64,000 bases of DNA from Candidatus Bathyarchaeota archaeon (GTDB lineage Archaea; Thermoproteota; Bathyarchaeia; Bathyarchaeales; WUQV01), in NCBI GenBank assembly GCA_021158125.1, contig JAGGVF010000007.1, forward strand, positions 1-64,000. Reading direction: 5' to 3'. A model generated the notes under the pieces. The model was not told where the DNA came from, did not search any database, and worked only from the letters and a program-made list of their open reading frames with translations. Position 1 is the stretch's first letter. Each line of letters opens with the position of its first letter. The translations under genes were made by a program, and so were the position numbers. Positions 4,847 through 43,215 of this stretch are shown here, one piece after another.

Positions 4847-4888
4847 CCTAACTAAAATGTTTATTTATGCAAAGAATTTACTGAATTA

Positions 4889-5041: not shown

Positions 5042-5099
5042 CTGCAATTTTAGCTTTATTCATATTTAAAAGGTTAAATGTTGAAGAAATCCATTAAAC

Positions 5100-6936: not shown

Positions 6937-6958
6937 TCTAATTCACGTTAAACCAAAT

Positions 6959-19606: not shown

Positions 19607-20257
19607 TTACGGCTTTATCTTAACGGGCTCTCCCATCGTAAGTTTGAGGTAAACCGAACTAATGTTCCTTAGGCCTCTTTTAAGTTTGCCTTCCAAACTG
19701 TGAATAACGGCCAAAACGTTTTCCGTTATTTCCTCATCCTTCATCTCTTCGGTTCCAACTTTGCAGTGTAGAACCGGTTGGCCTCTAACCCTAACCATAA
19801 CTGTTTTCCGCATTCTTTCAATTAGCGGCTTAACATCGGCTCCAGGCGGAACCGGAGTAGGCATTTTTCCTCTAGGCCCAAGGATTGGCCCCAAAATCTT
19901 TCCTATTAATGGCATAAGAGGAGCTTCAGCCAAGAAGAAGTCGTAGTTTTTGGCTAGTTGCCTCTGCTTCTTTTTATCTCCAGCCATTCCTTCAAGTTCT
20001 TCTCTTGTTAAAACGTAGTCTGCACCGGCCTTTTTTGCTTTTAAAGCCATTTCTCCGGTTGCTATTACGCAAACTTTCGCTGATTTTCCAAGTCCGTTTG
20101 GCAGTTCAATTGTCTGCTGTATTCTACCTTCCGGCTTTTTCGGGTCCACGTCTTGAAGGTTTATAATAAGCTCTACTGACTGAGAGAAATTCCTCTTCTT
20201 ACTCTTCTCACGGACTTGTTTTAATGCTTCCATTATTGTTTTCTTGTCAAGTGGCAT
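19607..20257 (-). CDS. rpl1: ribosomal protein uL1
   Basis: A 216-aa L1, the mobile-stalk protein that helps release E-site tRNA. Family blocks: KKRNFSQSVELIINLQDVD near the start, PTPVPPGADVKPLIERMRKT in the centre and LKLTMGEP at the end, with GKILGPRGKMPTP-like motif around residue 115-125. An upstream in-frame ATG would add seven residues; ATG 20257 is chosen because GAGGCAGACC precedes it. Archaeal L1 often represses its own operon by binding its mRNA, but I cannot identify the site here. Confidence 0.94.
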   Translation of the reverse strand: MPLDKKTIMEALKQVREKSKKRNFSQSVELIINLQDVDPKKPEGRIQQTIELPNGLGKSAKVCVIATGEMALKAKKAGADYVLTREELEGMAGDKKKQRQLAKNYDFFLAEAPLMPLIGKILGPILGPRGKMPTPVPPGADVKPLIERMRKTVMVRVRGQPVLHCKVGTEEMKDEEITENVLAVIHSLEGKLKRGLRNISSVYLKLTMGEPVKIKP

Positions 20258-20312
20258 TGGTCTGCCTCGCTTTTTCACCTAGAGGCGGGCTTTTATAAAA
20301 ATGTTGCCGAAA

Positions 20313-20816
20313 CTAAGATTCTGCTTTTTCTTCCTCTTGGAAGATTTCGTCATACTTTCCTTCATCTATTTCTCTCTGAACTTCCCGGGGGTCTTTGCCT
20401 TCAACAGTTATCCCCATGCTCACACAGCTGCCTAAAATCTCCTTCGCAGCTTTCTTCAAGTTTTTGGCCAAAAGCTCTAAACGTTTCATCTTTGCAATTT
20501 TAATGATCTGCTGTATTGTTAGATTTCCAACTTTCTGTTTGCCGGGGTCTCCGGAGCCTTTATCGATTCCCAATTCTTTAATAATCAAAGCCGAAGTTGT
20601 AGGTGTTCCAACTTCAACCTCAAATTCCTTTGTTTCAACATCAACTGTAATTTTCACTGGAACCTTCATTCCGGCAAAATCTTTCGTTAATTCATTTATT
20701 CTGTTCACTATTGCCATCACGTTTACTCCTAAAGGTCCAAGTGCGGGGCCGAGCGGCGGCCCAGCTGTTGCCTGTCCGCCTGGAACCAGTGCTTCTATAA
20801 CCTTTTTCTCTCCCAT
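20313..20816 (-). CDS. rpl11: ribosomal protein uL11
   Basis: A 167-residue L11 with the proline-rich N-terminal block [20 protein letters not shown] that contacts elongation factors, and the C-terminal rRNA-binding domain ([32 protein letters not shown]). An acidic tail (EEEKAES) is extra. The ATG at 20816 follows AGGTGAATGAA and overlaps the end of nusG, indicating translational coupling. Confidence 0.95.
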
Positions 20817-20817
20817 T

Positions 20818-21318
20818 TCATTCACCTTTTTTGGCTTTTTCAACAAGTTTAACGTAGTCTGCGTGAACAGTTATTGGAAGTGTGAATGTGGCTTCCAAGA
20901 GTTCTAGAGTTACTTCAGATTTCGCCTTGTCTATTCTAGTTATTTTTGCTCTCATTCCCTTAAATGGGCCTCCAATCACTTCAACTATATCGTTTTCGCT
21001 GAGTTCTTCTATTATTGGCTTTGAAACTATGTAGCTTTCCACTTCTTCGAAGTCCACTTTGCCATACTGGACTCTTGAGCGTACATGCTTTATTCCAGCT
21101 ATTGCTTCTTCCACAAAATGAGGGCCTTCAGCCTCAACGAAAATGTATCCCTTTAAGCCTTCCGGTACAAGTATGGCTTTTACTGGAAGATTTTTTAATT
21201 CAACTCTTGCGGCTACAAGGTTTGCTACGTTCTTCTCTTGCCCCGCAGTTGTTCTCACAGCGAATATTGAAGTTGAAAATTTTTTTCCTTTGCTCTTCTT
21301 TTCTTTGTTCTCTTCCAT
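20818..21318 (-). CDS. spt5: transcription elongation factor Spt5 (archaeal NusG)
   Basis: A 166-aa protein with a lysine-rich start, an NGN domain (about 16-100; [26 protein letters not shown]) that clamps RNA polymerase, and a KOW domain (about 108-155; [21 protein letters not shown]). It works with Spt4 to keep polymerase processive and may link it to the ribosome. It sits between SecE and L11, the usual archaeal order. Confidence 0.95.
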
Positions 21319-21336
21319 CTTTTCGACATCCTAAAT

Positions 21337-21525
21337 TTAGGTTTGAGTAACTTGCGTTGGAGCACCCAGTAGGAAGGAGATGAAGGCTATGATGAAGCCT
21401 ATTCCTCCAACTGCCACCATGCCTAATGTGCATATTTTCAGAGACAGCCAAAGCTCACTTCTTGACGGTTTCCTAGCTGTTTTTAACAGCCGCGAACATG
21501 AGGATAGGAAAGACCTTACGCCCAT
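21337..21525 (-). CDS. secE: protein translocase subunit SecE (Sec61 gamma)
   Basis: About 62 residues: an amphipathic N-terminal helix (SFLSSCSRLLKTARKPSRSELW) and one membrane helix (GMVAVGGIGFIIAFISFLL). This is the standard layout of the gamma subunit that clamps the SecY pore. ATG 21525 after GGTAGGATT is preferred over an upstream in-frame ATG. First gene of the SecE-NusG-L11-L1-L10-L12 operon. Confidence 0.88.
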   Translation of the reverse strand: MGVRSFLSSCSRLLKTARKPSRSELWLSLKICTLGMVAVGGIGFIIAFISFLLGAPTQVTQT

Positions 21526-21555
21526 GGCTAATCCTACCAACTCAATTTCAATCAA

Positions 21556-21565
21556 GTATAAAAAT
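21556..21565 (-). promoter_or_regulatory. TATA box of the SecE-NusG-L11-L1-L10 operon
   Basis: TTTTTATACT on the minus strand lies about 30-40 bases upstream of the SecE start. It overlaps nothing else except the short gap after dtdA, making it the likely promoter of the whole operon. Confidence 0.5.
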
Positions 21566-21594
21566 GTAGCTTTAACCCTAATAAAACGTAATCC

Positions 21595-22413
21595 TTAAAC
21601 TTTCCTAACGTTTATCCTGAGAGTTCTTAACTTCTCCATTAAAGGCTGCTTGTCAGCTCCTTTAATTCCCTTCCAGTCTAAAACGGCTAACTCGACTTTT
21701 TCCAACGTTCTTTCGATGCACTGCCTCAAAACTTCTAAGTCAACCCTACCGATCATATGCTTCGGAATCATATGTCCAAAAGCAACGTCTTCTCTAAGAG
21801 ACAGCTTCGTAAACTTCTCATTGTAGTGTGGGCCTCCTAAGCCTAAGACTGCTGAATAAGTATTCTCGTTTGTCGCCGCCTGCATCGCCGCATGGGCCAC
21901 CGCCTCTGCAGCCTTTGAATCTTTCCACTGCGGAAGCGAACTTCCAAGTTCAACGAACATTGTGGGTACGTTAAGTGACGGCCCGTGGTGGGTGCATTCA
22001 TAACAGACTTTGTAGTTCAAATTCCATTCATTTTTCAGTTTTTCCATTTCCTTTAAAGCGTTTTTCATGGCGCTGGCGGGTGAAACGGAAATTTTCTTTG
22101 GTAATCCTCCATAATTTGCCTCTTCTGTTAAGTTTCCAGGGGTATGCACGGACAGTGTGGGTGTTCCGCTTGCGCTGCTGTGGCGTGAAATATAAATTAT
22201 GAGTTTGGGGCTAAAGTGTTCTGTGATGTTTTGCGTGTATATCAGGTCTTGTTTGGTGAAGATGAGTTTGATTTCGCGGTTTCGAATTTTCATGATGTAA
22301 GTTGGTTTCCCTTGATATTCCTCCGAAGTTTTTTCGAAGTCGTAGTGTTCAAGCAATTGCTGGGCTATATTTATGCTTGCAACATCCTTTTCTGAGGCCA
22401 CCATCAGAATCAA
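21595..22413 (-). CDS. dtdA: D-aminoacyl-tRNA deacylase, archaeal/plant type
   Basis: A 272-aa zinc enzyme that hydrolyses D-aminoacyl-tRNA, protecting translation from D-amino acids. Recognisable blocks: a SRHSSASGTPTLSVHTPGN region near residue 75-93, YECTHHGPSLNVPTMFVELG near 139-158, and LGLGGPHYNEKFT near 196-208. The closely spaced histidines fit metal ligands. It lies 40-70 bases upstream of secE on the same strand and is divergent from the carbamoyltransferase gene. Confidence 0.88.
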   Translation of the reverse strand: MILMVASEKDVASINIAQQLLEHYDFEKTSEEYQGKPTYIMKIRNREIKLIFTKQDLIYTQNITEHFSPKLIIYISRHSSASGTPTLSVHTPGNLTEEANYGGLPKKISVSPASAMKNALKEMEKLKNEWNLNYKVCYECTHHGPSLNVPTMFVELGSSLPQWKDSKAAEAVAHAAMQAATNENTYSAVLGLGGPHYNEKFTKLSLREDVAFGHMIPKHMIGRVDLEVLRQCIERTLEKVELAVLDWKGIKGADKQPLMEKLRTLRINVRKV

Positions 22414-22507
22414 TTGTTCATCTTCCTTCCTAGATGCATCTTCAAGTTGTAGTAATCACAAAGCTTTAAAAGGATTTTACAGTTCGAAATACAGAAGGTT
22501 GAAAGTT

Positions 22508-23431
22508 ATGAAACCCAGACACCTAATCAACTTTAAAAACTGGAACAGCGAAGAACTTCTTGAAATAATTGATAAGTCGATAGAAATTAAAAGGAATCCC
22601 GAAAAATACTGTAATGCATTAGAGGGCAAATCTTTAGCAATGATTTTTCAAAAAACATCCACAAGAACTAGGGTTTCATTTGAAGTTGCCATGACTCAAC
22701 TTGGCGGACACGCCATATTCTTGGACTGGAGAGCAACCCAGTTTGTTTTGGCTGACATACGTGACGAAACAAGTTATCTTTCAAGAAATGTTGACTGCAT
22801 AATGGCCAGATTACTAAAAAATGCTGACTTACAATTAATGGCTGAAGCGTCGCTTGTCCCAGTCATAAATGGATGCGACGAAAAATATCATCCATGCCAA
22901 GCCTTAACAGACTTAATGACCATGAAGGAGAAGAAGGGCCGCTTAGAAGGCTTAAAACTTGTCTACATAGGCGTTCACAACAATGTTTGTAACTCGTTGA
23001 TAGAGGCATGCACAAAGCTTGGAGTAGAAATTACAACTGTAACGCCAATCATCCATGAACCAGCATTAGACGAGGAAATAATTGAACAAGCAAAGAAAAC
23101 AGGCCTATACAAGACTGAAAAGGACGTCAAAAAAGCAGTTAGAGACGCAGACTTCGTTTATACGGACACGTGGATTGACATGGAGCTCTTCTTAGACCCA
23201 AAATTCAAAGAGGAGAAGGAAAAACGAATTAAACTTATGATGCCCTACCAAGTTAACAGCCAACTGCTTGCTGAAAGCAAAGCTCTAATCATGCATGACA
23301 TGCCAATTCACAGAGGATACGAAATAAGCGGCGAGGCAGTTGAAAGCGAACGTTCAATAATCTACGAACAGGCTGAAAATAGGCTTTACACGGCAAAAGC
23401 AATATTATTAAAGCTTCTGGGGAAACTGTGA
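22508..23431 (+). CDS. ornithine-carbamoyltransferase-family enzyme, atypical substrate loop
   Basis: A 307-aa carbamoyltransferase. The carbamoyl-phosphate site is intact: STRTR at 51-55 and HPCQ at 128-131. The amino-acid side differs from classical ornithine carbamoyltransferase. The DxWxSMG loop reads TDTWIDM (219-225), and the HCLP motif with its catalytic cysteine reads HDMP (263-266). It may use ornithine by another geometry, or a modified or different amine. ATG 22508 opens at the family start; the longer ORF overlaps dtdA. No other arginine genes lie nearby. Confidence 0.75.
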   Translation: MKPRHLINFKNWNSEELLEIIDKSIEIKRNPEKYCNALEGKSLAMIFQKTSTRTRVSFEVAMTQLGGHAIFLDWRATQFVLADIRDETSYLSRNVDCIMARLLKNADLQLMAEASLVPVINGCDEKYHPCQALTDLMTMKEKKGRLEGLKLVYIGVHNNVCNSLIEACTKLGVEITTVTPIIHEPALDEEIIEQAKKTGLYKTEKDVKKAVRDADFVYTDTWIDMELFLDPKFKEEKEKRIKLMMPYQVNSQLLAESKALIMHDMPIHRGYEISGEAVESERSIIYEQAENRLYTAKAILLKLLGKL

Positions 23432-23437
23432 AAAGGG

Positions 23438-24343
23438 CTATTTCAAAATCATTTCAACAAACATTTCGGGGTTAAATCTTTCCAAATCCTCGTATGTCTG
23501 ACCTGTTCCAATGTAGATTATGGGTTTTCCAGTAACGTAAGTTACGCTTAGCGCTGAGCCTCCTTTCACGTCGGCGTCAACTTTGGTTAAAACTGTTCCG
23601 TCGATTCCTACAGCTTTATTGAATTCTTCAGCTTGCATGACTGCATCGTTTCCTGTTAAAGCATCGACTACTAGTATGGTTAGGTCGGGATTTATGACAC
23701 GTTTAATCTTGGCGAGTTTGTTCATTAAGTTTCTATCGGTTTGTATTCTTCCGGCAGTGTCGATTAATACTGCGTTTATTCCATGTGCCTTTGCATAGTT
23801 TGTTGCGTCGTAGGCTACTGCAGCTGGGTCAGCCCCGTATGTATGCTTTATCATTCTTATTCCTAAACGTCTAGCGTGTTCTCCGAGTTGTTCTATTGAG
23901 CCAGCTCTATAGGTGTCGCTGCAAGCCAGAACAACTGAAAATCCTTTCTTGGAGAACATTTTTGCAATTTTAGCTATGGTTGTGGTTTTTCCTGTTCCGT
24001 TTATTCCAACAAAGACTATTACGAGCGGTTCGCCTTTCTTTCTTTTTTCTTCAGCCATTTTGAGCAAGTCGATTTTTTCGCCTGTGTTCAGTATCTCAAG
24101 TAGAACTTGTTGCAGATTTTCTTTCACTATTTTCCTTTTATCTTCTAATCGTTTTACTTGTAGTCCTTCTAGGCGTTTGCCGAGTTCTTCGCATATTTTT
24201 TCGGCTACTGGGAAGGCGACGTCGTTTTCCACCAGGCTTAGTTTGAATTCTTCTAGGATTGGCTGCAGTTGCTCCGCTTTTAATTCTGTTGTTGTTATTT
24301 TGTTTACTAGGCTGTTAAGTCTTGCCTTCAGTTTTTCGAACAC
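23438..24343 (-). CDS. ftsY: signal recognition particle receptor FtsY
   Basis: A 301-aa SRP GTPase that docks ribosome-SRP complexes at the membrane. A short helical N domain (1-90) precedes the G domain with P-loop GINGTGKTT at 113-121, the insertion-box region CSDTYRAGSIEQL, DTAGR near 195 and TKVDAD for guanine specificity. The long acidic A domain of bacterial FtsY is absent, normal for archaea. Its start lies inside the end of the prefoldin alpha gene. Confidence 0.95.
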   Translation of the reverse strand: MFEKLKARLNSLVNKITTTELKAEQLQPILEEFKLSLVENDVAFPVAEKICEELGKRLEGLQVKRLEDKRKIVKENLQQVLLEILNTGEKIDLLKMAEEKRKKGEPLVIVFVGINGTGKTTTIAKIAKMFSKKGFSVVLACSDTYRAGSIEQLGEHARRLGIRMIKHTYGADPAAVAYDATNYAKAHGINAVLIDTAGRIQTDRNLMNKLAKIKRVINPDLTILVVDALTGNDAVMQAEEFNKAVGIDGTVLTKVDADVKGGSALSVTYVTGKPIIYIGTGQTYEDLERFNPEMFVEMILK

Positions 24344-24779
24344 TTGGCCGTTGCCCCCGAGCTATTCTCTGTGATATTTCCTCAAGTTTAGCTCTGTCCT
24401 CTTGAATTTTCTGTGCTATTTGGGCGAGTTGCTGCTGTAATCTTCCGAGAAGTTTTTCAAGTTGCTCTATTCTTTTCGAAAGTGTTTCCTTAGCTTCTTT
24501 TGTTGTTTTCTCAATTGCTACTCCGGCTCCTATTCCTACAACAACCGTGTCTTTGCTTTCGATTTTAGCTTTGACATATGAGCCTCCGCCGATTGGAACG
24601 AGAAGTGACGTTTCAACTTTCTCTTTTTCTAAGCCCTCCAAATTCATTTTTGCATAGTTTAGTTCTGTTAGGGCGGCGTTTACGAAGTTTATTCTTGACT
24701 GTATGGAGTCGACTGTAGTCTCCAATAATCGAATTTCTGTAGCTATTTTCCTAAATGCTTCTTCATCTTCTTTCGACAA
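24315..24779 (-). CDS. pfdA: prefoldin subunit alpha
   Basis: A 154-aa chaperone subunit with two coiled-coil helices (about 1-60 and 95-145) flanking the beta-hairpin block LLVPIGGGSYVKAKI and GIGAGVAIEKT. It forms a hexamer with beta subunits and passes unfolded proteins to the thermosome (gene at 41.5-43.1 kb). TTG start, nine bases after AGGAG. It overlaps ftsY by 29 bases. Confidence 0.93.
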   Translation of the reverse strand: MSKEDEEAFRKIATEIRLLETTVDSIQSRINFVNAALTELNYAKMNLEGLEKEKVETSLLVPIGGGSYVKAKIESKDTVVVGIGAGVAIEKTTKEAKETLSKRIEQLEKLLGRLQQQLAQIAQKIQEDRAKLEEISQRIARGQRPSVRKTEGKT

Positions 24780-24783
24780 TTGT

Positions 24784-25020
24784 TTATTCTCCTAAAGCTA
24801 ACTTTCTTATTATTGGGTCTTCAGCTTCTTCAGGCTTTATTTCTTCAACCTTTAAAATTTTTATATGGAATCTTTTAACCCTGTGTTTGCTTCCTAATTC
24901 CATGTAAACTTTTTCCATGGCTTGTTCAGGCTTTAAGGCTCTAACTTCCTTTTCAAAATCCGTTCTAAAATTCGGCTTAGTTATTCTTCCAATCACACGG
25001 AATATTTTAACTTCACTCAT
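24784..25020 (-). CDS. rplX: ribosomal protein LX (eL20)
   Basis: A 78-aa archaeal LX/L18a protein: KIFRVIGRITKPNF at the start, the central RALKPEQAMEKVYMELGSKH block and RFHIKI. A five-codon upstream extension is open but ATG 25020 has GGAAGAAA before it and gives the usual MSEVKIFRV start. It overlaps the 3' end of aIF6. Confidence 0.92.
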   Translation of the reverse strand: MSEVKIFRVIGRITKPNFRTDFEKEVRALKPEQAMEKVYMELGSKHRVKRFHIKILKVEEIKPEEAEDPIIRKLALGE

Positions 25021-25696
25021 TTTCTTCCACCACATTTAGGATGTTTCCGATTATGAACATTTCAGGCCCAGTTGTTAGGGAACCTGCAACCACGTTTCGG
25101 CTGTTCCCTATTAGGCCTGTTGCAATGTAGGGTATTCCACAGTTAACTGTTCCTACGTCAACTGGAACCTTTAAAACTTCCTCTATAAGTTTTCGTTCTT
25201 CCTCTCTAATTAATGGATGTGCTAGTACTCCTTTATTTGTTGCTATGGCTAAAGAGCCAACGTAAGGCAGTCCGGCTATTTCGCCTTGTACAGCCTCAAC
25301 GTCTAAAACGTCTGAAATGATTTTAACTTCTTGAGGTTTAAGTCTAGGGTCAACTATTGCCCCTTTATCGTTTGCTAAAACCATGTTTCCATAAGCAGTC
25401 CGCTTTGTTTCCATAACTTGAATGTTCAAATCCTTTGCGACTGCTTTAATCTCTTTGATTTCTTCGTCCAAAATGAAATGGGGTAAGAGCATGCCGTAGG
25501 AGTTTGCGCATACTAGTGCTCCCAATAAGACGGAGTTTCCAACGTTCGTTCTTATCAGCGGGACTTTCAGCCATTTTTCAAGTTTTTTCGCTTTTGTTTC
25601 TGGAGCTGGTTTTGGAACCATCACAAATTTTTCATTTGCAATTGTATAGACGCCTATGCTGGCTGTTCCGAAAAGGCTGAGGAGGTATATTCCCAA
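25013..25696 (-). CDS. eif6: translation initiation factor aIF6
   Basis: A 227-aa anti-association factor that binds the large ribosomal subunit. The pentameric repeat fold shows as recurring NSYG/NDKG/NKG turns (VCANSYGMLLP, VLANDKGAIVDP, IATNKGVLAHP). TTG start just after the eL31 stop; co-transcribed with eL31 and LX, the common archaeal order. Confidence 0.94.
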   Translation of the reverse strand: MGIYLLSLFGTASIGVYTIANEKFVMVPKPAPETKAKKLEKWLKVPLIRTNVGNSVLLGALVCANSYGMLLPHFILDEEIKEIKAVAKDLNIQVMETKRTAYGNMVLANDKGAIVDPRLKPQEVKIISDVLDVEAVQGEIAGLPYVGSLAIATNKGVLAHPLIREEERKLIEEVLKVPVDVGTVNCGIPYIATGLIGNSRNVVAGSLTTGPEMFIIGNILNVVEENE

Positions 25697-25697
25697 C

Positions 25698-26192
25698 TTA
25701 GTCTCCTTCAGCGAGATAAACTGTGACGTTTCCGTCCTTATCCTTTACAGCCCTAACCCTCACCTTCCTCGGGGGCTTCTCTATTCCCCTACGCCAAACC
25801 CACTCATTAACTTCATTACTTATAATCAGGCGGCCTTCCTCTTCTTCCTCTTCTTCAAGGCCAACCTTTAAACCTATTTTCATGTGGCGTTGAATAAAGT
25901 TCCTAATTAGGCGCATTGCCCTCGGAGTCCTATTCTTACGTGGGCTTCTCCATGCTTCACGTAAAGGAATGGTGTATATTCTTTCTTCAACAATTTCTTC
26001 TTCTGGAATTTCCTCTCTAATGCGTGGTCTTTCTTCAACAGCCTCTTCCTCAGTTATTTCCTCTTCTTCCTTTTCCTCCGCTTTCTCTTCTTCCGCTGCT
26101 TCGGTAACTTCTTCCTCTGCTAAAGTAACCTCTTCTTCTGTCAATGCTTCAGCTTCTTCAGTTTCTTCTTCCTTTTCTTCAGTTTCCTCCAT
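25698..26192 (-). CDS. rpl31e: ribosomal protein eL31 with long acidic N-terminal extension
   Basis: A 164-aa protein. Residues from about 71 onward are standard eL31 (RIYTIPLREAWRSPRKNRTP, AMRLIRNFIQRHMK, VNEWVWRRGIEKPPRKVRV). The first 70 residues are almost wholly Glu with some Ala, Thr and Val, an unusual acidic extension on a normally basic protein near the tunnel exit. An internal start cannot be excluded, but the reading frame and leader AGGTGAAGTTTA support the full length. It may be disordered and contact export factors or chaperones. Confidence 0.9.
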   Translation of the reverse strand: MEETEEKEEETEEAEALTEEEVTLAEEEVTEAAEEEKAEEKEEEEITEEEAVEERPRIREEIPEEEIVEERIYTIPLREAWRSPRKNRTPRAMRLIRNFIQRHMKIGLKVGLEEEEEEEGRLIISNEVNEWVWRRGIEKPPRKVRVRAVKDKDGNVTVYLAEGD

Positions 26193-26205
26193 TAAACTTC
26201 ACCTG

Positions 26206-26361
26206 TTATGCCCTTATCTTGCTCCTTCTCCAATGCTTCTTTTTGGGGTGAGTTCTAACTTTTCCATTTGTTTTTGCTATTACCCACGTTGGGACGGCTT
26301 GTCTTTGTTTTCCGGCTTTTATGAGTCTTCTCTTTTTGGCTGTTGGCTTATTTCTGGCCAT
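26206..26361 (-). CDS. rpl39e: ribosomal protein eL39
   Basis: A 51-aa, very basic protein read directly from the sequence: it begins [13 protein letters not shown], continues [20 protein letters not shown] and ends HWRRSKIRA. This is the exit-tunnel protein eL39 at its usual length. It lies between the PDCD5-like gene and eL31 with the usual tight spacing. Confidence 0.95.
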
Positions 26362-26362
26362 T

Positions 26363-26695
26363 TTATATTCTCCTAATTTTGAATTCGCGTTTTTGTGGTT
26401 GTAAATGTTTAAGGATTATTTTTAGTTGTTCATCTGTTACTGGGATTCTCAATTTTCCAGCTTGGGCGAGTTGGATTAGCTGGATTTCAAGTTGAGAGGC
26501 GAATTCCGGTCTGACTATTTTGATGTTTGTTAGGCGTTGTCTAGCTTGAGGTGTAAGTATCCGCCTTAGAATCGCCTGTTTTTGCATTTCTATTTGCTGT
26601 TGCATTTGTATTCTTCTCTGTTCTTCCGCTAGTTTCTGCTGTAGTTCAAGCATTTTTCTTCTGCGAATTTCCTCAAGCTCTTGGTCTTCAGCCAA
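26363..26695 (-). CDS. PDCD5/TFAR19-related DNA-binding protein
   Basis: A 110-aa protein of the archaeal PDCD5-like family: a charged, Gln-rich N-terminal helix ([19 protein letters not shown]) and a three-helix core ([34 protein letters not shown]). Archaeal members bind nucleic acids; function is not settled. TTG start after GAGGGCG. Co-transcribed with eS19 and eL39, a conserved archaeal neighbourhood. Confidence 0.9.
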
Positions 26696-26713
26696 TTTTT
26701 CGCCCTCTCAACC

Positions 26714-27169
26714 CTAATACTTTTTAAGTTCTGGAATTTGCTTTTCTAACTCCTTCTTTATCTCAGTTGACAACCTGTCCAGTAGACGTCTTCCTTCACG
26801 TGAAATTATGCGTCCCTTCCCCTTTACTGTTTCTATTAGGCCGGCGGCTTCCAACTGTTGAAGGGCTTTACGGATAATTGCTCCTCCGCCTTTACGGACA
26901 TGTTCGGGTCTCGCACCGAAGTCTTTTCTTCCTCCATACTCTGCCCTCAAATGCTCAACGCCTATTGGCCCCTTTAAGTAAATTTTGCGAAGCAAGGAAG
27001 CGCATCTTGTAAACCACCAGTCTGGGTTCTGCGGAGGCCTTTCCTTGTGGCTGCCAGTTTTTACGAATTCAGCCCAAGGCGGAGGCTCAACCTCCGTTAC
27101 GTTATCCTTTAAGTATTTGGCTAACCTTTCAATGAGGATTGAAGCTGGAACATCATGAGGGGTCGGCAA
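26714..27169 (-). CDS. rps19e: ribosomal protein eS19
   Basis: A 151-aa small-subunit protein. Diagnostic blocks: [43 protein letters not shown] and [18 protein letters not shown] start. It is separated from its usual upstream partners YhbY and Rnp4 by the frameshifted nuclease-like gene. Confidence 0.95.
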
Positions 27170-27324
27170 CTACTGCTTCTCCTTTAAAGTTTTCCTTTTG
27201 TAAAGACTAAAGGGAACATATAAACATATTTCACTTTCGATAGGCTGAAACATTAAAGGATAAAAGACTGAATAATTTTGTTGCAGGGTAGGGGTGAGAG
27301 GTTATAGAGCAATTGATGCTGCTC

Positions 27325-28295
27325 TTAGGAATCACTTCTTATAAACTCTTCTCTGTATCTTTTTTGTTTTTCTTCATGTTCATACCGCCATTGACTTATT
27401 TTATTATTTAGTTTCTTCCATTCAGTCCTACCAAGTTGCTTTTCAATTATTTTTCGTATTTCATTCAAGAAGAAAAATGAGGTATCGCTTAGACTCCATA
27501 GGTAGTCAAGCGTTCCATAACTTCGACACACCGCAAGGTTACATAGCTCCAGTTTTTCTAAGCTAAAACTTCTCCAACCAAGATCCCTGCAATAATTATT
27601 GTAAAGCTCGTCAATAGAGAAAAATCTATGTACACTTGTAGAGAGATGTGCGCCATAAAGTATCGCTAATCCTCTCCAATCTCTTTTAATAAAAGAGAGT
27701 TCTGAAAATTCTTCAGTTCTTCTATATCTACGATTGAACGCAACCCAAAAACAACCATCTTCAAGAACAGTTTCAGAAAGCCTATCTAAAGGTTCACGAT
27801 CCAAAGTACGAATATTTTTTAGGTACTCCATGTCATCAAACCACATGTCCTTCCATATTTGGTTATATTGACGTTCTATTCGTTTCGCCTTACGGATTAT
27901 GTGAGATCTAAAAAGTGCAATAGAGATTAACCCAACGTCAGGATAGAACGACTCTTTCAATTCGCTAAGGTAAATAGCTTGCCCAACAACATTAGCCGGA
28001 TATGCAAGGAACACTCCATTTAAGAACTTAGAATATTTCCTTGCTTGCTCAAAGTCGTTCTTATGAGGAAAACCTTTCTTAACTTCAATTCCATAAACTT
28101 CATTTCCGTACCTTACAACATAGTCTATACGGTTTCCTTTGCCGAATGATACTTGCGAATACCAGCCATCATGACATTTAAAAATCGCTTCTCTGTCAAG
28201 ATCTCTTTCGATAATGTAGTAAAGCGATCGTTCATCAACCAGCTTTTGTTTACGTACAAATTTCCCTTTTTCTTTTCTTTCCTTTCCTTCCTCAT
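27325..28295 (-). CDS. PD-(D/E)XK-like nuclease protein, frameshifted
   Basis: Read leftward from ATG 28295 (after AGGGGG) the first ten codons are MRKERKEKKK, then the frame is lost in an A5 run (T5 on plus, 28267-28271). Adding one A restores an open frame of about 323 residues to 27325. The restored N-terminal domain has Asp58 (RIDYVV) and Glu71-x-Lys73 (IEVKKG), followed by a Q-containing helix: a PD-(D/E)XK nuclease pattern. The C-terminal 200 residues are unknown. Without correction the only start is GTG 28014, which removes the catalytic domain. Accessory insertion in the ribosomal cluster. Confidence 0.6.
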
Positions 28296-28352
28296 TTAAT
28301 AAACCCCCTACATGGATTTATCTGACTAGGAAACCTCGATTAAGATTTTTTA

Positions 28353-28634
28353 TCAAATAGTAAATTTTTTCTTTCTATATAAAGTGAATGTGTGGCCTCT
28401 GACCTCCACTAGAGTAGCTTCAACTTTGGCCGTAACTTCTGATGCAACTTCTTTAGCCTTCTTTTCAGCCAAAGCTGACTTCAAAATCTTAATCTTTACC
28501 ACTTCGTTCTTGTCAAGCTGCTTTTCTATTTCACTTAAAACGGTTGGTGTTATGCCATTTTTTCCAATGCGTACTGTAGCCTTTTCCATGCTGAATTCAC
28601 GTTTTATTCTACGCCTCATTCTAGGAGTTGCCAT
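28353..28634 (-). CDS. YhbY/CRM-domain RNA-binding protein
   Basis: A 93-aa CRM-domain protein: GKNGITPTVLSEIEKQL with the GxxG loop at residues 24-27, then VVKIKIL, and the final RGHTFTLYRKKK. Single-domain YhbY proteins bind pre-ribosomal large-subunit RNA in bacteria; a ribosome-assembly role is likely here. It lies 20 bases after the RNase P protein gene. Confidence 0.88.
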   Translation of the reverse strand: MATPRMRRRIKREFSMEKATVRIGKNGITPTVLSEIEKQLDKNEVVKIKILKSALAEKKAKEVASEVTAKVEATLVEVRGHTFTLYRKKKFTI

Positions 28635-28654
28635 TTTACATTCAAACCTAACGT

Positions 28655-28996
28655 TTAACTTTTAAACTTGCTGTTAATACTTTTCCTTCTTCTCTTTCTC
28701 AAAGGAATTCGCATATGTTTTCCGCATTCTAGGCACGTTATCACCACGTGAGGTTCCCGACGTTGCTGGATGCGAACTCGACAGTTTACGCCTGGCAGTA
28801 TAAAGCTTTTACAATGCCTACAAACTTGCCGTCTATATTCACGTGGAAGTTTAACTCTGGCCGCCATGGCTAAACGTCTGGCTATCTGAACGTAACGTTG
28901 AGCCAAGGCCTTATCTTCATGAATAGTTTCACGGGCTAATCTAAACAGTATGTGTATACGCTCTAATGCAATACGCCTAGTCTCTGGGTCAACCAA
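28655..28996 (-). CDS. rnp4: ribonuclease P protein component 4 (Rpp21)
   Basis: A 113-aa protein with an N-terminal helical domain and a zinc ribbon formed by Cys59, Cys62, Cys88 and Cys91 (CRHCKSF and CLECGKH). It pairs with Rnp1 (Rpp29) on the specificity domain of RNase P RNA for tRNA 5' processing. TTG start; first gene of the leftward YhbY-eS19 cluster and divergent from nep1. Confidence 0.92.
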   Translation of the reverse strand: MVDPETRRIALERIHILFRLARETIHEDKALAQRYVQIARRLAMAARVKLPREYRRQVCRHCKSFILPGVNCRVRIQQRREPHVVITCLECGKHMRIPLRKRRRKSINSKFKS

Positions 28997-29075
28997 GCCG
29001 AGGAAGCCTCTACAATTAATTATTAAACCTTAATTTGGAATAACTTTACCTTTCATAATAGAAAAGGTTTCAGCC

Positions 29076-29774
29076 TTGCTAACCCTAATTCTAGCCGAGT
29101 CCGCACTTGAAACAGTTCCCGAAGAAATTCAGAATCACCCATCCATTCTAAAACAGGCAAGAGCGAAGGATAAGAGGCCAAACCAAATAATCCTCGACCG
29201 TTCTTACCATCATCATGCAATGCTTAAACTTCCAAACAACGAGAAAAGAGGCCGCCCAGACATAGTTCATTTCAGCCTCCTTTCAGCACTTGGAACACCC
29301 CTTAACTTGGAAGGTCTCCTAAAAGTCTACGTACACACAATAGCCAACTACGTAATAGATGTCAATCCAAAGGTTAGACTTCCGAGAAACTACAATCGCT
29401 TCGTAGGGTTGATGGAACAACTCTTCCAATATGGCCGTGTCCCGCCCAAGAGCGGGGAACCACTGTTAAAACTTGAAAAGAAGACACTAAAAGAACTAAT
29501 AACTCAAGTAAATCCAGTTTATGTCCTAGCATTTACACGTAAAGGAAAAATGCAAACCCTAGAAAAGGCTGTTTCAAAATTAGCTGAAAAAGAAAATTCA
29601 GCTGTAATTGTTGGAGGCTTTCCCCACGGCAGTTTTTCAGAAGAAACCCTAAAACTCGCCGATGAAACTGCTTGCATAGACCCGGAAACCCTTGAAGCGT
29701 GGACGGTAACGGCAAGAATAATATACGAATACGAAAAAATTATTGGAATTCCGCAAAAGAGAACTCTGAAGTGA
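29076..29774 (+). CDS. nep1: rRNA pseudouridine methyltransferase Nep1
   Basis: A 232-aa SPOUT-class methyltransferase that N1-methylates a pseudouridine in 16S rRNA and assists small-subunit assembly. Blocks: ILDRSYHHHAML near residue 38-49, GRPDIVHFSLL, VDVNPKVRLPRNYNRF-like region near 93-108, and the SAM knot GGFPHGSFSEE. TTG start. It ends 6 bases before the flavodoxin gene. Confidence 0.93.
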   Translation: MLTLILAESALETVPEEIQNHPSILKQARAKDKRPNQIILDRSYHHHAMLKLPNNEKRGRPDIVHFSLLSALGTPLNLEGLLKVYVHTIANYVIDVNPKVRLPRNYNRFVGLMEQLFQYGRVPPKSGEPLLKLEKKTLKELITQVNPVYVLAFTRKGKMQTLEKAVSKLAEKENSAVIVGGFPHGSFSEETLKLADETACIDPETLEAWTVTARIIYEYEKIIGIPQKRTLK

Positions 29775-29780
29775 GCTAGA

Positions 29781-30281
29781 ATGTCCAATGAAATAAATGT
29801 TCTAATTGTCTACGATTCAGGAACTGGTAATACCGAGAAAATGGCCTTCGCTGTTGCAGAGGGCGCAAAAGAGGTGGAAGGAGCCAAAGTAACGGTTAAA
29901 AGGGCAGATAAAACAAAGCTTGAAGACCTGCTTAAAGCAGACGCAATCATAGTGGGCTCTCCAACCTACTATGGGCAGATGTCATCAAAGATTAAAGCCT
30001 TATTCGATAAGTCGGTTGAAGTTCACGGAGAACTTGAGGGAAAGGTAGGCGCAGCTTTCACAAGTTCCGGCGGAACAGCAACAGGAGCCGAAACAACTCT
30101 TCTTTCAATAATTAAAGCTATGTTAATCCATGGAATGATAATTCAAGGAAGAGCCAGAGGAAAACATTATGGAGCCGCAGCAGTTGGGAAACCGGACAAA
30201 AGAGAATTGGAAGTATGCAGGGAACTTGGGAGGAGAACGGCTAAGCTCGCTTATAAACTAAAACATGGCGGCGAAAAGTAG
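29781..30281 (+). CDS. flavodoxin / WrbA-like FMN protein
   Basis: A 166-aa flavodoxin-fold protein. The FMN phosphate loop is SGTGNTEKMA at residues 13-22, and GSPTYYGQMSSK near 59-70 and SSGGTATGAE near 95-104 cover the isoalloxazine ring. The pattern is nearer to WrbA-type quinone reductases than to short electron-transfer flavodoxins. Directly after nep1 with a 6-base gap, so probably co-transcribed, though functionally unrelated. Its end overlaps the convergent pyrophosphatase gene. Confidence 0.85.
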   Translation: MSNEINVLIVYDSGTGNTEKMAFAVAEGAKEVEGAKVTVKRADKTKLEDLLKADAIIVGSPTYYGQMSSKIKALFDKSVEVHGELEGKVGAAFTSSGGTATGAETTLLSIIKAMLIHGMIIQGRARGKHYGAAAVGKPDKRELEVCRELGRRTAKLAYKLKHGGEK

Positions 30282-32243
30282 GGCTATTGAACCTATAACA
30301 TTTATGAGAATGTCTAGTGAAGGACCAGCCGTATCCTTAAACGGGTCACCGATAGTATCGCCTATAACTGCCGCTGCATGAGCCGGAGTACCTTTTCCTC
30401 CCAGTTCTCCAGATTCTATATATTTTTTGGCGTTGTCCCAAGCTGTTCCGCTGTTCATTAGAAGAAGGGCCATAGGCAAGACTGTAGCTATGTTTCCAAC
30501 GATTAAGCCGCCGACGGCTTCAGCTCCAAATATGAAGCCTACAGCTAATGGAACAATTATCGATATTGCCGCAGGAGCGAAAAGTCCCTTCAATGCAGAT
30601 TTTGAACTTATGTCAATGCATTTTACATAGTTTGGGTCGGCTTTCCCCTCGGCGAGTCCCGCTATCTCTTTGAATTGCCGTCTGACCTCAGCTATCATTT
30701 CAAAGGCTGCTTTTCCAACGGCTTTGAATAAAAATGAAGAGAACAGAAAAGTTGTCATTCCGCCGATTATTGCTCCTATGATGACTTGGGGGTTCATAAG
30801 ATTAATGCTGTTTAAGTTTGCGGCCTCTATGAAAGCAGAGAAAAGCGCTACTTGAGCTAAACCAGAGGCTCCAACAGCATAACTTTTACAAATTGCCTTT
30901 GCAGTGTTTCCAATGGAATCAAGGGTGTGAGCATTTTCAGAAGCCTTTTCATCTTTAACATGCGCCATCTTAATAATGCCCTGCGAATTGTCAACTATAG
31001 GCCCATAAGCAGACATCGACATTATTATAGCAGTAATTGAAAGGAAGCCAATTGAAAGTAGGGAGATGCCGAAAAGCCCAGAAATCTGATAAGAAAGGAA
31101 AATTGCAACGCAAAAAACTATTATTGGGATTGCTGTGCTTTCCAAACCTACTGCAAGCCCCATCAAAACATTGGTAGCAGCTCCAGTTCGGCAAGAGTTA
31201 GCGATTGCCTTAACCGGTGAATAACCATGCAAAGTATAATATTCCGTAAAGAAGGCGAAAAGGAAAACAGTTACAATCCCTACAACTATGACGTAGAAAG
31301 GGTTAAGGTTCCCTTCAAAAACGAAGTTTGTAACAAAATATGAAGCCGCCACTACGAAAAGGCTTGCTGCAAAAATCCCCTGATCAACCACGATTAGGGT
31401 TCTGTCTTTGTCAACTCTGATAAGTAGAAGCGCAAAAATCGAGGCGAAAACCCCAACAGACATAATTACTATTGGGAAGAAGGACCATTCTAACGCCTTT
31501 TCTAGTCCGCCAACTTTCATTCCTTCTTGGAATCCGACGAGGATGGCTGCTATAAGCGTGCAAATGTATGATTGGAAGACGTCAGCGCCTGTACCAGCAA
31601 TGTCACCTACATTGTCACCTACTTGGTCCGCAATCACCGCAGGATTTCTCGGATCATCCTCAGGTATTCCTTTCTCAACCTTTCCAACTAAATCTGCGCC
31701 CATATCCGCTGCTTTTGTGAATATTCCACCGCCAACTCTCGCAAAAAGGGCCGTTAAAGAGGCTCCGAAGCCTAAACCGATTATTCGTGAGGGGTCTTCT
31801 CCGCAGAATAAGTAAAGAACTGTTACGCCCAGTAAACCTATCCCAGTGAGCGTTAAACCCATTATGGCGCCGCTGTGAAAAGCCGTTTTGAAGGCTTCTT
31901 TAAGGCTTGAACGGGAGGCCTCTGCTGTCCGCAAATTGGCGTTAACTGCAACTATCATTCCAACGTAGCCGGCAAAAGCCGAAAGAAAAGCTCCTAAAGC
32001 AAACGTTAATCCGGGAAAGGGACTTTGCAGGGAAAAACCCAAAATTAAAGCTAAAACTATTATAAACGGAGTTATAATCTTAAATTGCTTGTGAATGTAT
32101 GCTTTCGCCCCTTCCTTTATGGCTTCGTGAACCCTCACCATCTCTTTCGTTCCTATTTTCTTTCTCAGCATCTTTAAAGCAACAAACAACGCGGAGACTA
32201 ATGCTATCACTCCAGCAGATAGCGTTATGAACACTAATTCCAT
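30258..32243 (-). CDS. hppA: membrane-bound proton-translocating pyrophosphatase
   Basis: A 661-aa protein with about 16 membrane helices that couples PPi hydrolysis to ion pumping. Catalytic sequences: GGGIFTKAADMGADLVGKVE, then DDPRNPAVIADQVGDNVGD, and late DTIGDPFKDTAGPS. The position that sets K+ dependence reads GNTAKA (near residue 445) with Lys, which marks the K+-independent, H+-pumping class. It would recycle PPi from biosynthesis into proton gradient. Confidence 0.93.
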   Translation of the reverse strand: MELVFITLSAGVIALVSALFVALKMLRKKIGTKEMVRVHEAIKEGAKAYIHKQFKIITPFIIVLALILGFSLQSPFPGLTFALGAFLSAFAGYVGMIVAVNANLRTAEASRSSLKEAFKTAFHSGAIMGLTLTGIGLLGVTVLYLFCGEDPSRIIGLGFGASLTALFARVGGGIFTKAADMGADLVGKVEKGIPEDDPRNPAVIADQVGDNVGDIAGTGADVFQSYICTLIAAILVGFQEGMKVGGLEKALEWSFFPIVIMSVGVFASIFALLLIRVDKDRTLIVVDQGIFAASLFVVAASYFVTNFVFEGNLNPFYVIVVGIVTVFLFAFFTEYYTLHGYSPVKAIANSCRTGAATNVLMGLAVGLESTAIPIIVFCVAIFLSYQISGLFGISLLSIGFLSITAIIMSMSAYGPIVDNSQGIIKMAHVKDEKASENAHTLDSIGNTAKAICKSYAVGASGLAQVALFSAFIEAANLNSINLMNPQVIIGAIIGGMTTFLFSSFLFKAVGKAAFEMIAEVRRQFKEIAGLAEGKADPNYVKCIDISSKSALKGLFAPAAISIIVPLAVGFIFGAEAVGGLIVGNIATVLPMALLLMNSGTAWDNAKKYIESGELGGKGTPAHAAAVIGDTIGDPFKDTAGPSLDILINVIGSIALLFAAMF

Positions 32244-32451
32244 ACTTTAATTCTCCAACTTTCATAGGGCTTTCATTTCTTTAGCAAGGGAAGAATTTAA
32301 CCTTTACTTCACTTTTATTCCCTGGCCACTTCAATTGAGCCGCTGTCTTAGCACATAACTTACACCAACTTCTCTGAGTATGTATGTGAAATTGACGACG
32401 TCAAACTGTTTAGAAAAGGGAAGTGAAAACGCTGAAGTTTTATGCCGATAA

Positions 32452-32529
32452 TGGTGCGGCCGCCGGGATTTGAACCCGGGTCCTCAGCGTGGCAGGCTGA
32501 CGTCCTAGTCCAGGCTAGACTACGGCCGC
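32452..32529 (-). tRNA. tRNA-Gly (GCC)
   Basis: A 78-base gene including CCA. Acceptor GCGGCCG/CGGCCGC, A73. Anticodon stem TCAGC/GCTGA with loop CTGCCAC gives anticodon GCC. T arm CCGGG-TTCAAAT-CCCGG. No intron. Confidence 0.95.
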
Positions 32530-32571
32530 CAATATCTTTTAATTCTAAGGTCATCTTTAAGTCTTTTACCT

Positions 32572-32739
32572 TCAGTATAATCGTTGTTGTGAATGATTGT
32601 GTAGGATTAGGAGAAAAATGGAGTAAATGTAAAGTAGAGTTCCATCGGGTGCTTTAACTGGATGAATGCTAAGCAAAAATGCAATTGAGCCGACTAAAAG
32701 CAGAATTAGAATTATCGAAAATTTTCCAAGTTGAAGCAC
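32572..32739 (-). CDS. possible small two-TM membrane protein
   Basis: A 55-codon ORF from GTG 32739 just downstream of the response regulator gene. The product has two hydrophobic segments (FSIILILLLVGSIAFLLSI and LLYIYSIFLLILH) joined by HPVKAPDG. The frame is open a further 30 codons upstream (overlapping the regulator) without a standard start codon. No ribosome binding site is evident. No family recognised. Confidence 0.3.
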   Translation of the reverse strand: MLQLGKFSIILILLLVGSIAFLLSIHPVKAPDGTLLYIYSIFLLILHNHSQQRLY

Positions 32740-32794
32740 ATAAATAATTAGAAAGGTGAAAGTAATGAATTTTAGAATAAATTGGTAAATTTTG

Positions 32795-33256
32795 CTACTT
32801 TCTGACTTTTTCCTTTGCTTCCAACTCCTTTACTCTTGTCTCTATGAATTCTACCATCTTTTGTTCACTGTATTTCCTTTCTTCTTCTTGTTTTTTCAGA
32901 TGTTCCCTGATTATTTTCAATATTTCTTCAATGTTTATTGGCTTTACTATGTATCCGTCTGCTCCCTTGTTGACGGCTTCTATCGCGTTTTGGAGAGTTG
33001 GATATCCAGTTATTATTATCTTCACCATTTTTGGTACCGTGTCCTTCATTTCTGTTAGAAGTTTTGTTCCTTCCATGTCGGGCAGTCGTATGTCTATTAA
33101 AGCTAGGTTGTAGAATTTCTGTTGGGTTGCTTGAATAGCCTTTTCTCCAGTGTCTACTGCCTCCACTATGTAGCCTTCATCCCTTAGTATAGCCGTTAAA
33201 ACTTCTCTTATGCTTTCGTCGTCGTCGACAATAAGGATTCTGGCTGGATCACCCAA
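32795..33256 (-). CDS. response regulator, receiver domain with coiled-coil tail
   Basis: A 153-aa protein: CheY-like receiver (1-118) with acidic pocket DDD at 11-13, phospho-acceptor Asp55 in LALIDIRLPD and the VKP lysine near 104. A 35-residue charged helix follows in place of any DNA-binding output domain. TTG start after a strong AGGAGGTGA; it overlaps the kinase gene by 49 bases, so the pair is translationally coupled. The output mode is unknown; it may act by protein contact. Confidence 0.9.
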   Translation of the reverse strand: MGDPARILIVDDDESIREVLTAILRDEGYIVEAVDTGEKAIQATQQKFYNLALIDIRLPDMEGTKLLTEMKDTVPKMVKIIITGYPTLQNAIEAVNKGADGYIVKPINIEEILKIIREHLKKQEEERKYSEQKMVEFIETRVKELEAKEKVRK

Positions 33257-35475
33257 ACTTTCTCACCTCCTTCCTTAATTTTCGGCTTTAAAGGCAAAGT
33301 GACCGTGAAGGTTGTGCCTTTTCCAACTTTACTTTTAACAGATATGGTTCCGCCGTGAGCTTCAACAATACGTTTACATATGCTTAAACCTAGCCCCATA
33401 CCCTTTGACTTAGTTGTAAAGAGAGGCCCCCAAATTTTCTCCATATTCTCCTCAGGTATGCCTACTCCAGTGTCTCTGAAGAAGATTTTCACGTGCGTAG
33501 TTGAAGTTTGACTTCGGATTGTTAGGGTTCCACCATTGGGCATAGCGTCAAACGCGTTTATTATTAGATTTAGAAATACGCGTTGCATATAACCGACGTC
33601 AACTACGAGTTTGTGCTTATGACTAGTTCTATTGATAACTTTCACGTTATCTGGAACTTTAACGCTTGAAAGTGCTTTCTCGACGAGTGCTCTGACAGTT
33701 ATCGAAGTTGGTTGTAGATGGTATTCTCTTGAGAATTCAAGGAGGTCGTTAACTATTTTGTTGGCGTATCTCGCATCTTTCTCTATTATTTCCAGCATTT
33801 TCCTAGATTCTTCGTCCAGCTTTGAGTATGCTTTCTTTTTCAAGTAGTAGACTGCGCCTGTTATTCCAGTTAATGGATTTCGAAGGTCATGTCCAACTTG
33901 GCCGGCGAGCTGTCCAATTGCAGCTAATCTTTCAGCCTTCAACAGTTTCTTCTGGGACTCTCTTAATTCCCTTGTTCTCTCTTCAACTTTCAACTCAAGT
34001 TTTTCGGCGTAATCCTTTAGTTCCTTCCTTGCTTTTTCCAGCTCTTCTATAAGTCTAGCGTTTTCGATGGCAACTGCTGCAAGGTTTAGGAAAATCTCAA
34101 GGGGGGCTAAGGATTCACGTGTAGGTTTTCTTCCATCAACGGGGTCGTCAATGCTTATTATTCCTACGATTTTCTCGTCTGGAGTGCGTAGAGGGGCATA
34201 AAGCATATCTTGCGGGTGCCAGTCAACCATTTCATCTGGGCTAAGCCTACTTGGAACGCCGGCCATAAATTCTACGCTATCCGAAGGCGCCTCTGGAGGA
34301 ACACCGTGAACGTGTTCACGAACCCACGGGTCATTCCATGGAAGATAGAAGAACTCTCCTATTTTAAAACGTTGGAATTTTGGGCCGAGTCGTTCACGCC
34401 AAACATGTCCTGGTGCTCTTCTTTCCCATAGAAGTTTTTTCTCTTCTCTAGTTAAGCCCACAGTTACAAGATCGGTGATTTCTAAGTTTTCGTCTCTTAC
34501 GGATATGACAACTCTTCTCCAACCAAGCGATTTTATGGCTTTTGCGATCACTTTAAGTCTTGAACGTAAGTCCTTTGCACGTACAATTTCAGCTGAACTT
34601 TTCATTAAAGCGGCTAGCTGTTTTGATTTTTTCTCCTCTTTTTGCTGTTTTCTTAATCCGCTTATGGCTATTGCAGTGTGTGCTGCGAGAATTTCAAGGA
34701 GTTCTATATCCCCTTTATCGAAGGCGTTCGCCCTTTTACTCTCAATGTTTAAAACTCCGATAACCTTTTTTCCAATCATTATTGGAACTGCCAACTCAGA
34801 ACGAATTCCCGGTACAGTTTTTATATATGCTGGATCTTTCTGCACGTCCGGGATAAGCATAGGTCTTTTCGTCTTAGCTGCTCTGGCGGTTATTCCTTTT
34901 TCTTCATGGAGTGGCACTTTATGACCTAGAGATTCGGGAAATCCATGTTGAGCAACCACTTTTAAAGCGTTTTTCTCCAGCATCAAAATACTTGCAACTT
35001 CAAATCCTAATGTTTCTTTGATGGCGTTAAATGTTAATGCATAGATTTCCTCCATGTTTTTGGCCATATGGAGATGTTGACTATACTTGTGAAGAGCCGC
35101 TAATCTCTCCTCAAATTTTTTCCTTTCCGTGATATCTATGGCAATTTCGAACCGAACATGCCTTCCGTCATGCCAGCGTATGGCTCTATCTATACAGTGG
35201 TACCATCTACCGTTCTTTCTGTTTTTAAAGTCCCAAATGTAAGTTTTTCCAAGGTTTTTTCCAAAAATATACTTGTTAGTGCAGAAAGGACAAGGTTTAT
35301 CAAAACCTTGAAAAACCCTATAACATTTCTTGCCAATTACATCTTCGCCAACAAATTTCTTCAAATTTTTATTTACATAGAGGACTTCATAGGTTTCAGG
35401 ATCAGCAACGTAAACTGGTTCATCGATCTCATCAAAAAAGGCGAAAAAATCATTTTGAATTAGCCTTTTTCGCAT
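33208..35475 (-). CDS. PAS-GAF-GAF sensor histidine kinase
   Basis: A 755-aa soluble kinase with no membrane helices. PAS domain about 10-118 (with CPFC and ITERKKFEERL linker), GAF about 135-275 (VPGIRSELAVPIMIG), a second, longer GAF-like domain about 290-475, a coiled coil, HisKA with phospho-His near residue 530 (VGHDLRNPLTG), and HATPase with N box NLIINAFDAM and G boxes DTGVGIP and GMGLGL. It senses a cytoplasmic cue, with Cys62 and Cys65 of the PAS as possible redox or metal ligands, and signals to the overlapping regulator. Confidence 0.93.
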   Translation of the reverse strand: MRKRLIQNDFFAFFDEIDEPVYVADPETYEVLYVNKNLKKFVGEDVIGKKCYRVFQGFDKPCPFCTNKYIFGKNLGKTYIWDFKNRKNGRWYHCIDRAIRWHDGRHVRFEIAIDITERKKFEERLAALHKYSQHLHMAKNMEEIYALTFNAIKETLGFEVASILMLEKNALKVVAQHGFPESLGHKVPLHEEKGITARAAKTKRPMLIPDVQKDPAYIKTVPGIRSELAVPIMIGKKVIGVLNIESKRANAFDKGDIELLEILAAHTAIAISGLRKQQKEEKKSKQLAALMKSSAEIVRAKDLRSRLKVIAKAIKSLGWRRVVISVRDENLEITDLVTVGLTREEKKLLWERRAPGHVWRERLGPKFQRFKIGEFFYLPWNDPWVREHVHGVPPEAPSDSVEFMAGVPSRLSPDEMVDWHPQDMLYAPLRTPDEKIVGIISIDDPVDGRKPTRESLAPLEIFLNLAAVAIENARLIEELEKARKELKDYAEKLELKVEERTRELRESQKKLLKAERLAAIGQLAGQVGHDLRNPLTGITGAVYYLKKKAYSKLDEESRKMLEIIEKDARYANKIVNDLLEFSREYHLQPTSITVRALVEKALSSVKVPDNVKVINRTSHKHKLVVDVGYMQRVFLNLIINAFDAMPNGGTLTIRSQTSTTHVKIFFRDTGVGIPEENMEKIWGPLFTTKSKGMGLGLSICKRIVEAHGGTISVKSKVGKGTTFTVTLPLKPKIKEGGEKVWVIQPESLLSTTTKA

Positions 35476-43091: not shown

Positions 43092-43215
43092 GATACAATA
43101 ACCTCCTAATTTAATGCAGAAAGAGGAAAACCAGCATTACAATATAAGTTTTTCGAGTTCTACAAGTATAAAGAATGTTGTGGACTTTACACTTGCGGCT
43201 TTAGAGAGGGTGTTT

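Follow-up and report, generated by a model that had tools for sequence, protein, structure and literature searches.

A rare nuclease-like gene with a broken reading frame between the YhbY and eS19 genes of a Bathyarchaeota archaeon

The 64,000-nucleotide stretch of Candidatus Bathyarchaeota archaeon DNA analysed here (the window, contig C7 of a 1.37 Mb source genome in 22 contigs) contains a nuclease-like gene whose long reading frame is separated from its likely start codon by a one-base discrepancy. An acquired mobile nuclease gene with a real and recent frameshift is the moderately favoured reading. According to it, a solitary gene from a small family on mobile elements of Bathyarchaeia would have been acquired horizontally and, in the source lineage, would have landed in the space that separates YhbY from eS19. 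Its product would have a PD-(D/E)xK-like catalytic region and, behind it, a region that probably binds DNA through a winged helix. Later, the gain or loss of one base in the purine-only tract right after the start codon would have broken the frame and ended synthesis of the complete enzyme.

Table 1. Coordinates of the nuclease-like gene, its sequence elements and its neighbours in the window.
Feature	Position	Strand	Basis or remark
RNase P subunit Rpr2/Rnp4	28655..28996	-	Pfam PF04032, E 1.3e-19
YhbY/CRM domain protein, upstream neighbour	28353..28634	-	Pfam PF01985, E 3.3e-21
Frame of the nuclease-like protein P0001, 330 codons plus stop, no standard start before 28014	27325..28317	-	
AGGGGG, Shine-Dalgarno-like	28304..28309	-	8 nt between AGGGGG and ATG 28295
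ATG, likely ancestral start, not in register with the long frame	28293..28295	-	68 nt before SLYYI block
ORF from ATG 28295 (zero frame), 56 codons plus stop	28125..28295	-	
Purine-only tract with A5 run 28267-28271, probable break site	28261..28292	-	sequence
PD-(D/E)xK-like core: SLYYI-ERDLDREA, RIDY (D65), GIEVKK (E78, K80)	28075..28227	-	three-sequence alignment
ORF of 229 aa from GTG 28014, product would begin behind the core	27325..28014	-	
Predicted winged-helix region	27391..27702	-	model residues 190-293 of the 27325-28269 frame
Ribosomal protein eS19, downstream neighbour	26714..27169	-	Pfam PF01090, E 3.8e-56

The disrupted frame and its homologues

On the minus strand, Pfam matches give the order Rnp4/Rpr2, YhbY, nuclease-like gene and eS19 (Table 1), and flavodoxin-like and pyrophosphatase-like genes, both named by eye, lie beyond them. 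The long frame (28317 to 27328) runs through its 330 codons without any stop, and not one ATG, GTG or TTG occurs in it upstream of the GTG at 28014 (codon 102). The ATG at 28295 with its AGGGGG site is out of frame with it, as an earlier note on this DNA had described; the coordinates and residue positions of that description hold, its D58, E71 and K73 corresponding to D65, E78 and K80 in the 330-codon numbering used here. Under a chance model of a purine Shine-Dalgarno-like hexamer 5-9 nt 5' of an ATG, 0.0023 such pairs are expected per 60 nt, and both strands of the window together hold seven against 5.0 expected; these sites show no window-wide enrichment, yet a chance occurrence at this one spot is unlikely.

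Codon usage fits the long frame better than either alternative in every sliding window from 28320 to 27420, 16 of the 17 scored, with a small margin (<1.5 units) in those at 27660 and 27600; the sole exception is the last one, at 27360, which extends beyond the stop. The per-codon score of the nuclease frame (0.083) is the second lowest among 39 long training frames, itself included (0.072-0.336), as may be expected of acquired DNA. The GC content is 0.35-0.38 across the gene and 0.37-0.46 over most of 20000-34999, and it is equally low at 32500-32999 (0.346) and from 35250 on (about 0.33); since other parts of the window are as GC-poor, composition alone is weak evidence of acquisition.

Two full-length homologues align with the long frame from residue 15-19 to residue 327, beginning far 5' of the GTG at 28014. 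The viral one is encoded on the IMG/VR contig IMGVR_UViG_3300018062_000110 (L038; 57% identity over 19-327, tblastn E 9e-118), where the gene at 5977-6942 has a TTG start behind a GAGGTC sequence and remains in a single frame within an open stretch of 324 codons. The other, from the Bathyarchaeota MAG PFL18 of the same class (G441; 35% over 15-327, or 17-327 depending on the search, E 1.5e-53), is also single-frame, its first ATG lying further upstream; its host is uncertain, since the PFL18 genome is listed with 7% contamination. Between P0001 and the L038 protein, codon positions 1, 2 and 3 differ at 108, 79 and 187 codons, with synonymous sites saturated, and at 20, 17 and 48 codons before the GTG at 28014; the long frame thus behaves as coding, and it is real.

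In both homologues the start and the D...ExK core share one frame. The three full-length sequences hardly differ in the blocks SLYYI-ERDLDREA, IDY and GIEVKK, all of which lie 5' of the GTG at 28014, and D65, E78 and K80, which are the conserved D...(D/E)xK residues, do not vary among them at all. P0001 and the viral protein are 67% identical before this GTG and 53% after it. By this alignment, a product started there would miss the best-conserved part, including the core, in agreement with the loss of the active site foreseen in the earlier note, and a gene call made from it would fall into an annotation trap, yielding just the C-terminal part of the protein with the catalytic core missing. 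Neither homologue starts at the GTG position, a comparison of N-termini that left the proposed frameshift standing, and both begin well upstream in one frame, as expected if the window copy is broken near its start.

The ATG at 28295 is the likely ancestral start, because it precedes the SLYYI block by 68 nt and the viral TTG precedes the same block by 60 nt. The break most probably lies within the purine tract 28292-28261 and is not placeable more exactly. The earlier note had put it at the A5 run (plus-strand T5 at 28271-28267), which does lie inside this tract; the exact site is not established, since the tract is purine-only throughout and the one-base discrepancy is therefore not assignable to that run, and the alignment of the three sequences offers no firm homology anchor inside it.

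Insertion at the YhbY-eS19 junction and a rare family on mobile DNA

Of the 30 relatives searched, 24 yielded a YhbY gene; the six without a YhbY hit were left out of the junction counts. The gene for eS19 lies within 110 bp of it in 13 of these 24, some of which are close kin, and 207-926 bp away in five; no eS19 is present in the flank examined in the other six, and none of the 24 encodes the nuclease in the DNA examined there. In G001, of the same family, the gene downstream of YhbY is unrelated and convergent, and eS19 is on another contig. The eS19 spacing in the 24 loci and in G001 suggests that the adjacency of YhbY and eS19 is probably ancestral, that the junction is unstable and that the nuclease gene is an insert, in keeping with the accessory nuclease-like gene that the earlier note saw inside the ribosomal cluster. 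As in homing endonucleases, the gene is found in one lineage and relatives have the site without it. No target-site duplication was found around the insert, only short, imperfect direct-repeat pairs. The YhbY-eS19 junction appears to be a place of gene insertion.

The widened or eS19-free junctions (11 of 24, L008-L031) carry various other genes. A TATA-like and a BRE-like sequence, read by eye, lie 5' of eS19 at 27216-27240 (minus strand); since the insert now parts eS19 from YhbY, eS19 may have its own promoter there. An Rfam search of 26000-30000, up to E 1, gave no match, and a sigma-70-type promoter scan, not built for archaeal promoters, gave nothing above shuffle level and no terminator.

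Sequence searches indicate that the nuclease family is rare. Among 61 near genomes the long-frame protein matched the source genome itself and none of its 60 relatives, and among 398 genomes of the phylum P0001 matched four at E 0.01, namely itself and three at chance level: the frames in G003 and G275 are, by eye, undecaprenyl-pyrophosphate-phosphatase-like and CofE-like, and the match in G317 (52 residues, E 0.0017) was likewise dropped as chance. Five of the 256 class genomes were matched by P0001, with G441 as a clear homologue and three weak matches (G003, G044 and G567, E 0.003-0.008) that were also dropped. A two-row profile matched one of 397 phylum genomes, G441 itself, and a three-row profile matched three of the 256 class genomes, namely the source, G441 and G059 (E 0.009), whose match carries four stops and was set aside as chance. 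A peptide-pattern search of genome contigs returned ten pattern stretches and no relative, and the same patterns gave nothing beyond the window copy against viral contigs. Phage and plasmid records gave no tblastn match with P0001, nor did the phages with the viral protein. Further scans of viral contigs led to L038 and L039 only, and the latter, a 134-codon phage-contig ORF (tblastn E 2e-5), was excluded from the family as unsupported by the three-sequence profile.

The best matches of P0001 in the family libraries (PADLOC Csx1 E 0.0066, PHROG 1529 E 0.0084, Pfam Rv2949c-like E 0.075) are not convincing, NCBIfam gave no match, and neither homologue had a better match than P0001 in Pfam, PHROGs or PADLOC. 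Among PDB sequences, the best E was 0.41 with P0001 and 0.34 (4r5q_A) with the family profile. Moreover, the family is untreated in the literature found on Bathyarchaeia viruses, homing endonucleases, Bathyarchaeota frameshifts or pseudogenes, and the ribosomal superoperon, S19e or RNase P.

The L038 contig is that of a head-tailed virus, with terminase (Pfam E 3.2e-12) and portal (Pfam E 2.1e-6) genes, and its nuclease gene sits a few genes from the terminase, directly behind a type IIG restriction-methylation gene at 2498-5839 (PADLOC E 9.7e-82). Its host is likely a member of the Bathyarchaeia, since relatives of its terminase (E 1e-10 or better) occur in 106 of the 256 class genomes, the source genome included. 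The stretches around related terminases (L055-L057) match the L038 terminase and portal, and no match to the nuclease or the type IIG gene was found in them, L056 starting at a contig end with its left side unseen. The PFL18 locus has Cdc6-lid/AAA, MT-A70 and UDG matches, together with an Ndc10_N match just below the cut-off, and is judged here to be mobile-looking. Together, the window copy, the L038 gene and the PFL18 gene place a nuclease-like family with no convincing match in four family libraries in a host ribosomal cluster, on a viral contig and at a locus that looks mobile.

Some details of these loci may be added. The terminase of the source genome (G000:C5:39648-40877; L050, L058) is 50% identical to that of L038 and is perhaps part of a provirus. 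An ORF between the L038 terminase and portal (9453-9974) has a CHAT-domain match below the cut-off (Pfam E 9.4e-4), and an MT-A70 methylase fragment (Pfam E 6.5e-6), with an EVE-domain match below the cut-off, lies near the PFL18 homologue at L036 7021-8153.

Predicted activity and comparison with known systems

The D...ExK pattern of P0001 is that of the PD-(D/E)xK nucleases, a superfamily that includes Cas4, Hjc, Mrr, VRR-NUC and others. P0001 resembles them in its D...ExK spacing behind the SLYYI-ERDLDREA block and in a weak match of the family profile, over the D...ExK stretch, to the Cas4 chain 4r5q_A (E 0.34), but it differs in having no convincing family match and in its predicted C-terminal winged helix.

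A first fold, made without an alignment, was discarded as poor (mean pLDDT 35). The second AlphaFold model, made with the three-sequence alignment, has a mean pLDDT of 49 and is confident only at about residues 191-310. Residues 1-191 are below 50, and the core order modelled there at this low confidence (H16-24, E36-43, E47-54, E57-64, H70-80, E86-89) fits an alpha-beta-beta-beta-alpha-beta order. Residues 29-106, in the same low-pLDDT region, align with tRNA-splicing-endonuclease chains at a Z of about 6 (VIA-align). From residue 191, block-mean pLDDT is 62-94, falling below 50 at 252-254, and the confident region consists of three helices followed by two strands. Among the VIA-align matches listed, Orc/Cdc6 winged helices reach a Z of 8.3 and MarR, ArsR and Fur types 6-7; since a Z of 8 is in the common range according to the tool's own note, the winged helix names a fold type and not a family. 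Foldseek gave nothing at E 0.001 or better against PDB and BFVD. The model thus points to a probable DNA-binding winged helix in the C-terminal third; the PD-(D/E)xK-like region could cleave DNA recognized by the winged helix.

A putative DNA cutter with a recognition module, found singly on a virus and, in the host, as an insert in a chromosomal gene cluster, would most resemble in its role a free-standing homing or restriction-like endonuclease. PD-(D/E)xK nucleases are listed among six homing endonuclease families in a passage of PMC6083498, and inactivation following invasion is described for homing endonuclease genes in part of PMC13405050. In its context the nuclease gene resembles free-standing homing endonuclease genes, being solitary, intergenic and sporadic, adjoining conserved genes and lying near the terminase on L038; a cleavage site and homing would be hypothetical features of P0001. 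The likeness to type IIG restriction enzymes comes from the one directly upstream on L038, whereas the window copy has no adjacent methyltransferase gene, and no cognate one was found among its neighbours (eS19, YhbY, Rnp4, and the flavodoxin-like and pyrophosphatase-like genes).

Bathyarchaeia viruses carry Cas4-like nucleases and stand-alone methyltransferases, as stated in part of PMC10848311. The Cas4-like nucleases that this source places in head-tailed viruses are of the PD-(D/E)xK type and come from viruses of the same host class, but P0001 showed no significant sequence similarity to Cas4 in the four family libraries or among PDB sequences, nor did the family profile among PDB sequences; the main text of that paper gives neither the sample number of the L038 contig nor PFL18. 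A bolder and rather unlikely conjecture is that of a new selfish, winged-helix-guided PD-(D/E)xK family which moves between Bathyarchaeia head-tailed viruses and host chromosomes and invades gaps beside essential ribosomal genes, the window copy having just been inactivated. If true, the history of this copy would resemble the homing endonuclease life cycle.

Possible origins of the break

The window copy is broken and its homologues are intact, and no second lesion is present in its frame, a pattern of recent pseudogenes which an assembly error would also produce. It is possible, if somewhat unlikely, that the organism carries an intact gene and that a mistake in assembly or consensus calling introduced the break into the record: the genome is a draft in 22 contigs, there is a single one-base discrepancy in a 330-codon frame that is otherwise open with a conserved core, and the absence of a second lesion also suits an intact gene. 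Nevertheless, A5 is a short run, and the window holds 312 A5/T5 runs, 94 of six and seven of seven. A scan of the window for frame breaks, based on codon usage only, found no widespread breaks and no other clear one like that of the nuclease gene, flagging besides it 43110-43277 (+), 57062-57829 (+) and 58597-58827 (-), each with a good segment well before the first start; the second of these overlaps tRNA-Thr (57052-57128), and the other two are short. Since 312 plus 101 runs are accompanied by no other clear break, a generally error-rich assembly is improbable. The better guess is a real lesion in a gene that was acquired and can be dispensed with, and we infer that the break is biological.

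Control by ribosomal or transcriptional slippage, or phase variation, as the earlier note had also suggested, is very improbable. The ATG at 28295, with its good Shine-Dalgarno site, leads into an A-rich tract that is suitably placed for it, but the run has only five A, and the zero-frame codons, read by eye, give no canonical slippery site, which is X XXY YYZ. The downstream RNA, in a pseudoknot-free model, shows no folding above shuffle level, with a z of -1.12 over 107 nt and 30 of 200 shuffles as good. Moreover, the break is conserved in neither full-length homologue, both having start and core in one frame, which argues against a programmed frameshift. Least probable is a non-standard start codon in the main frame with no break at all: ATC 28317, AAG 28284, AAG 28245 and CTG 28242 all lie 5' of the conserved block, so that a product begun at any of them would include the core, but no near-ATG codon stands 5-10 nt behind AGGGGG or another Shine-Dalgarno-like site, ATC 28317 preceding AGGGGG and AAG 28284 lying 19 nt behind it.

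Elsewhere in the window, a truncated ABC-transporter ATPase of 53 codons (6218-6376, minus strand; named by eye) has a stop just before the expected Walker A and no continuation in the other two frames of the same strand. The flagged frame at 58597-58827 overlaps the next gene and may be an out-of-frame 5' extension or chance.
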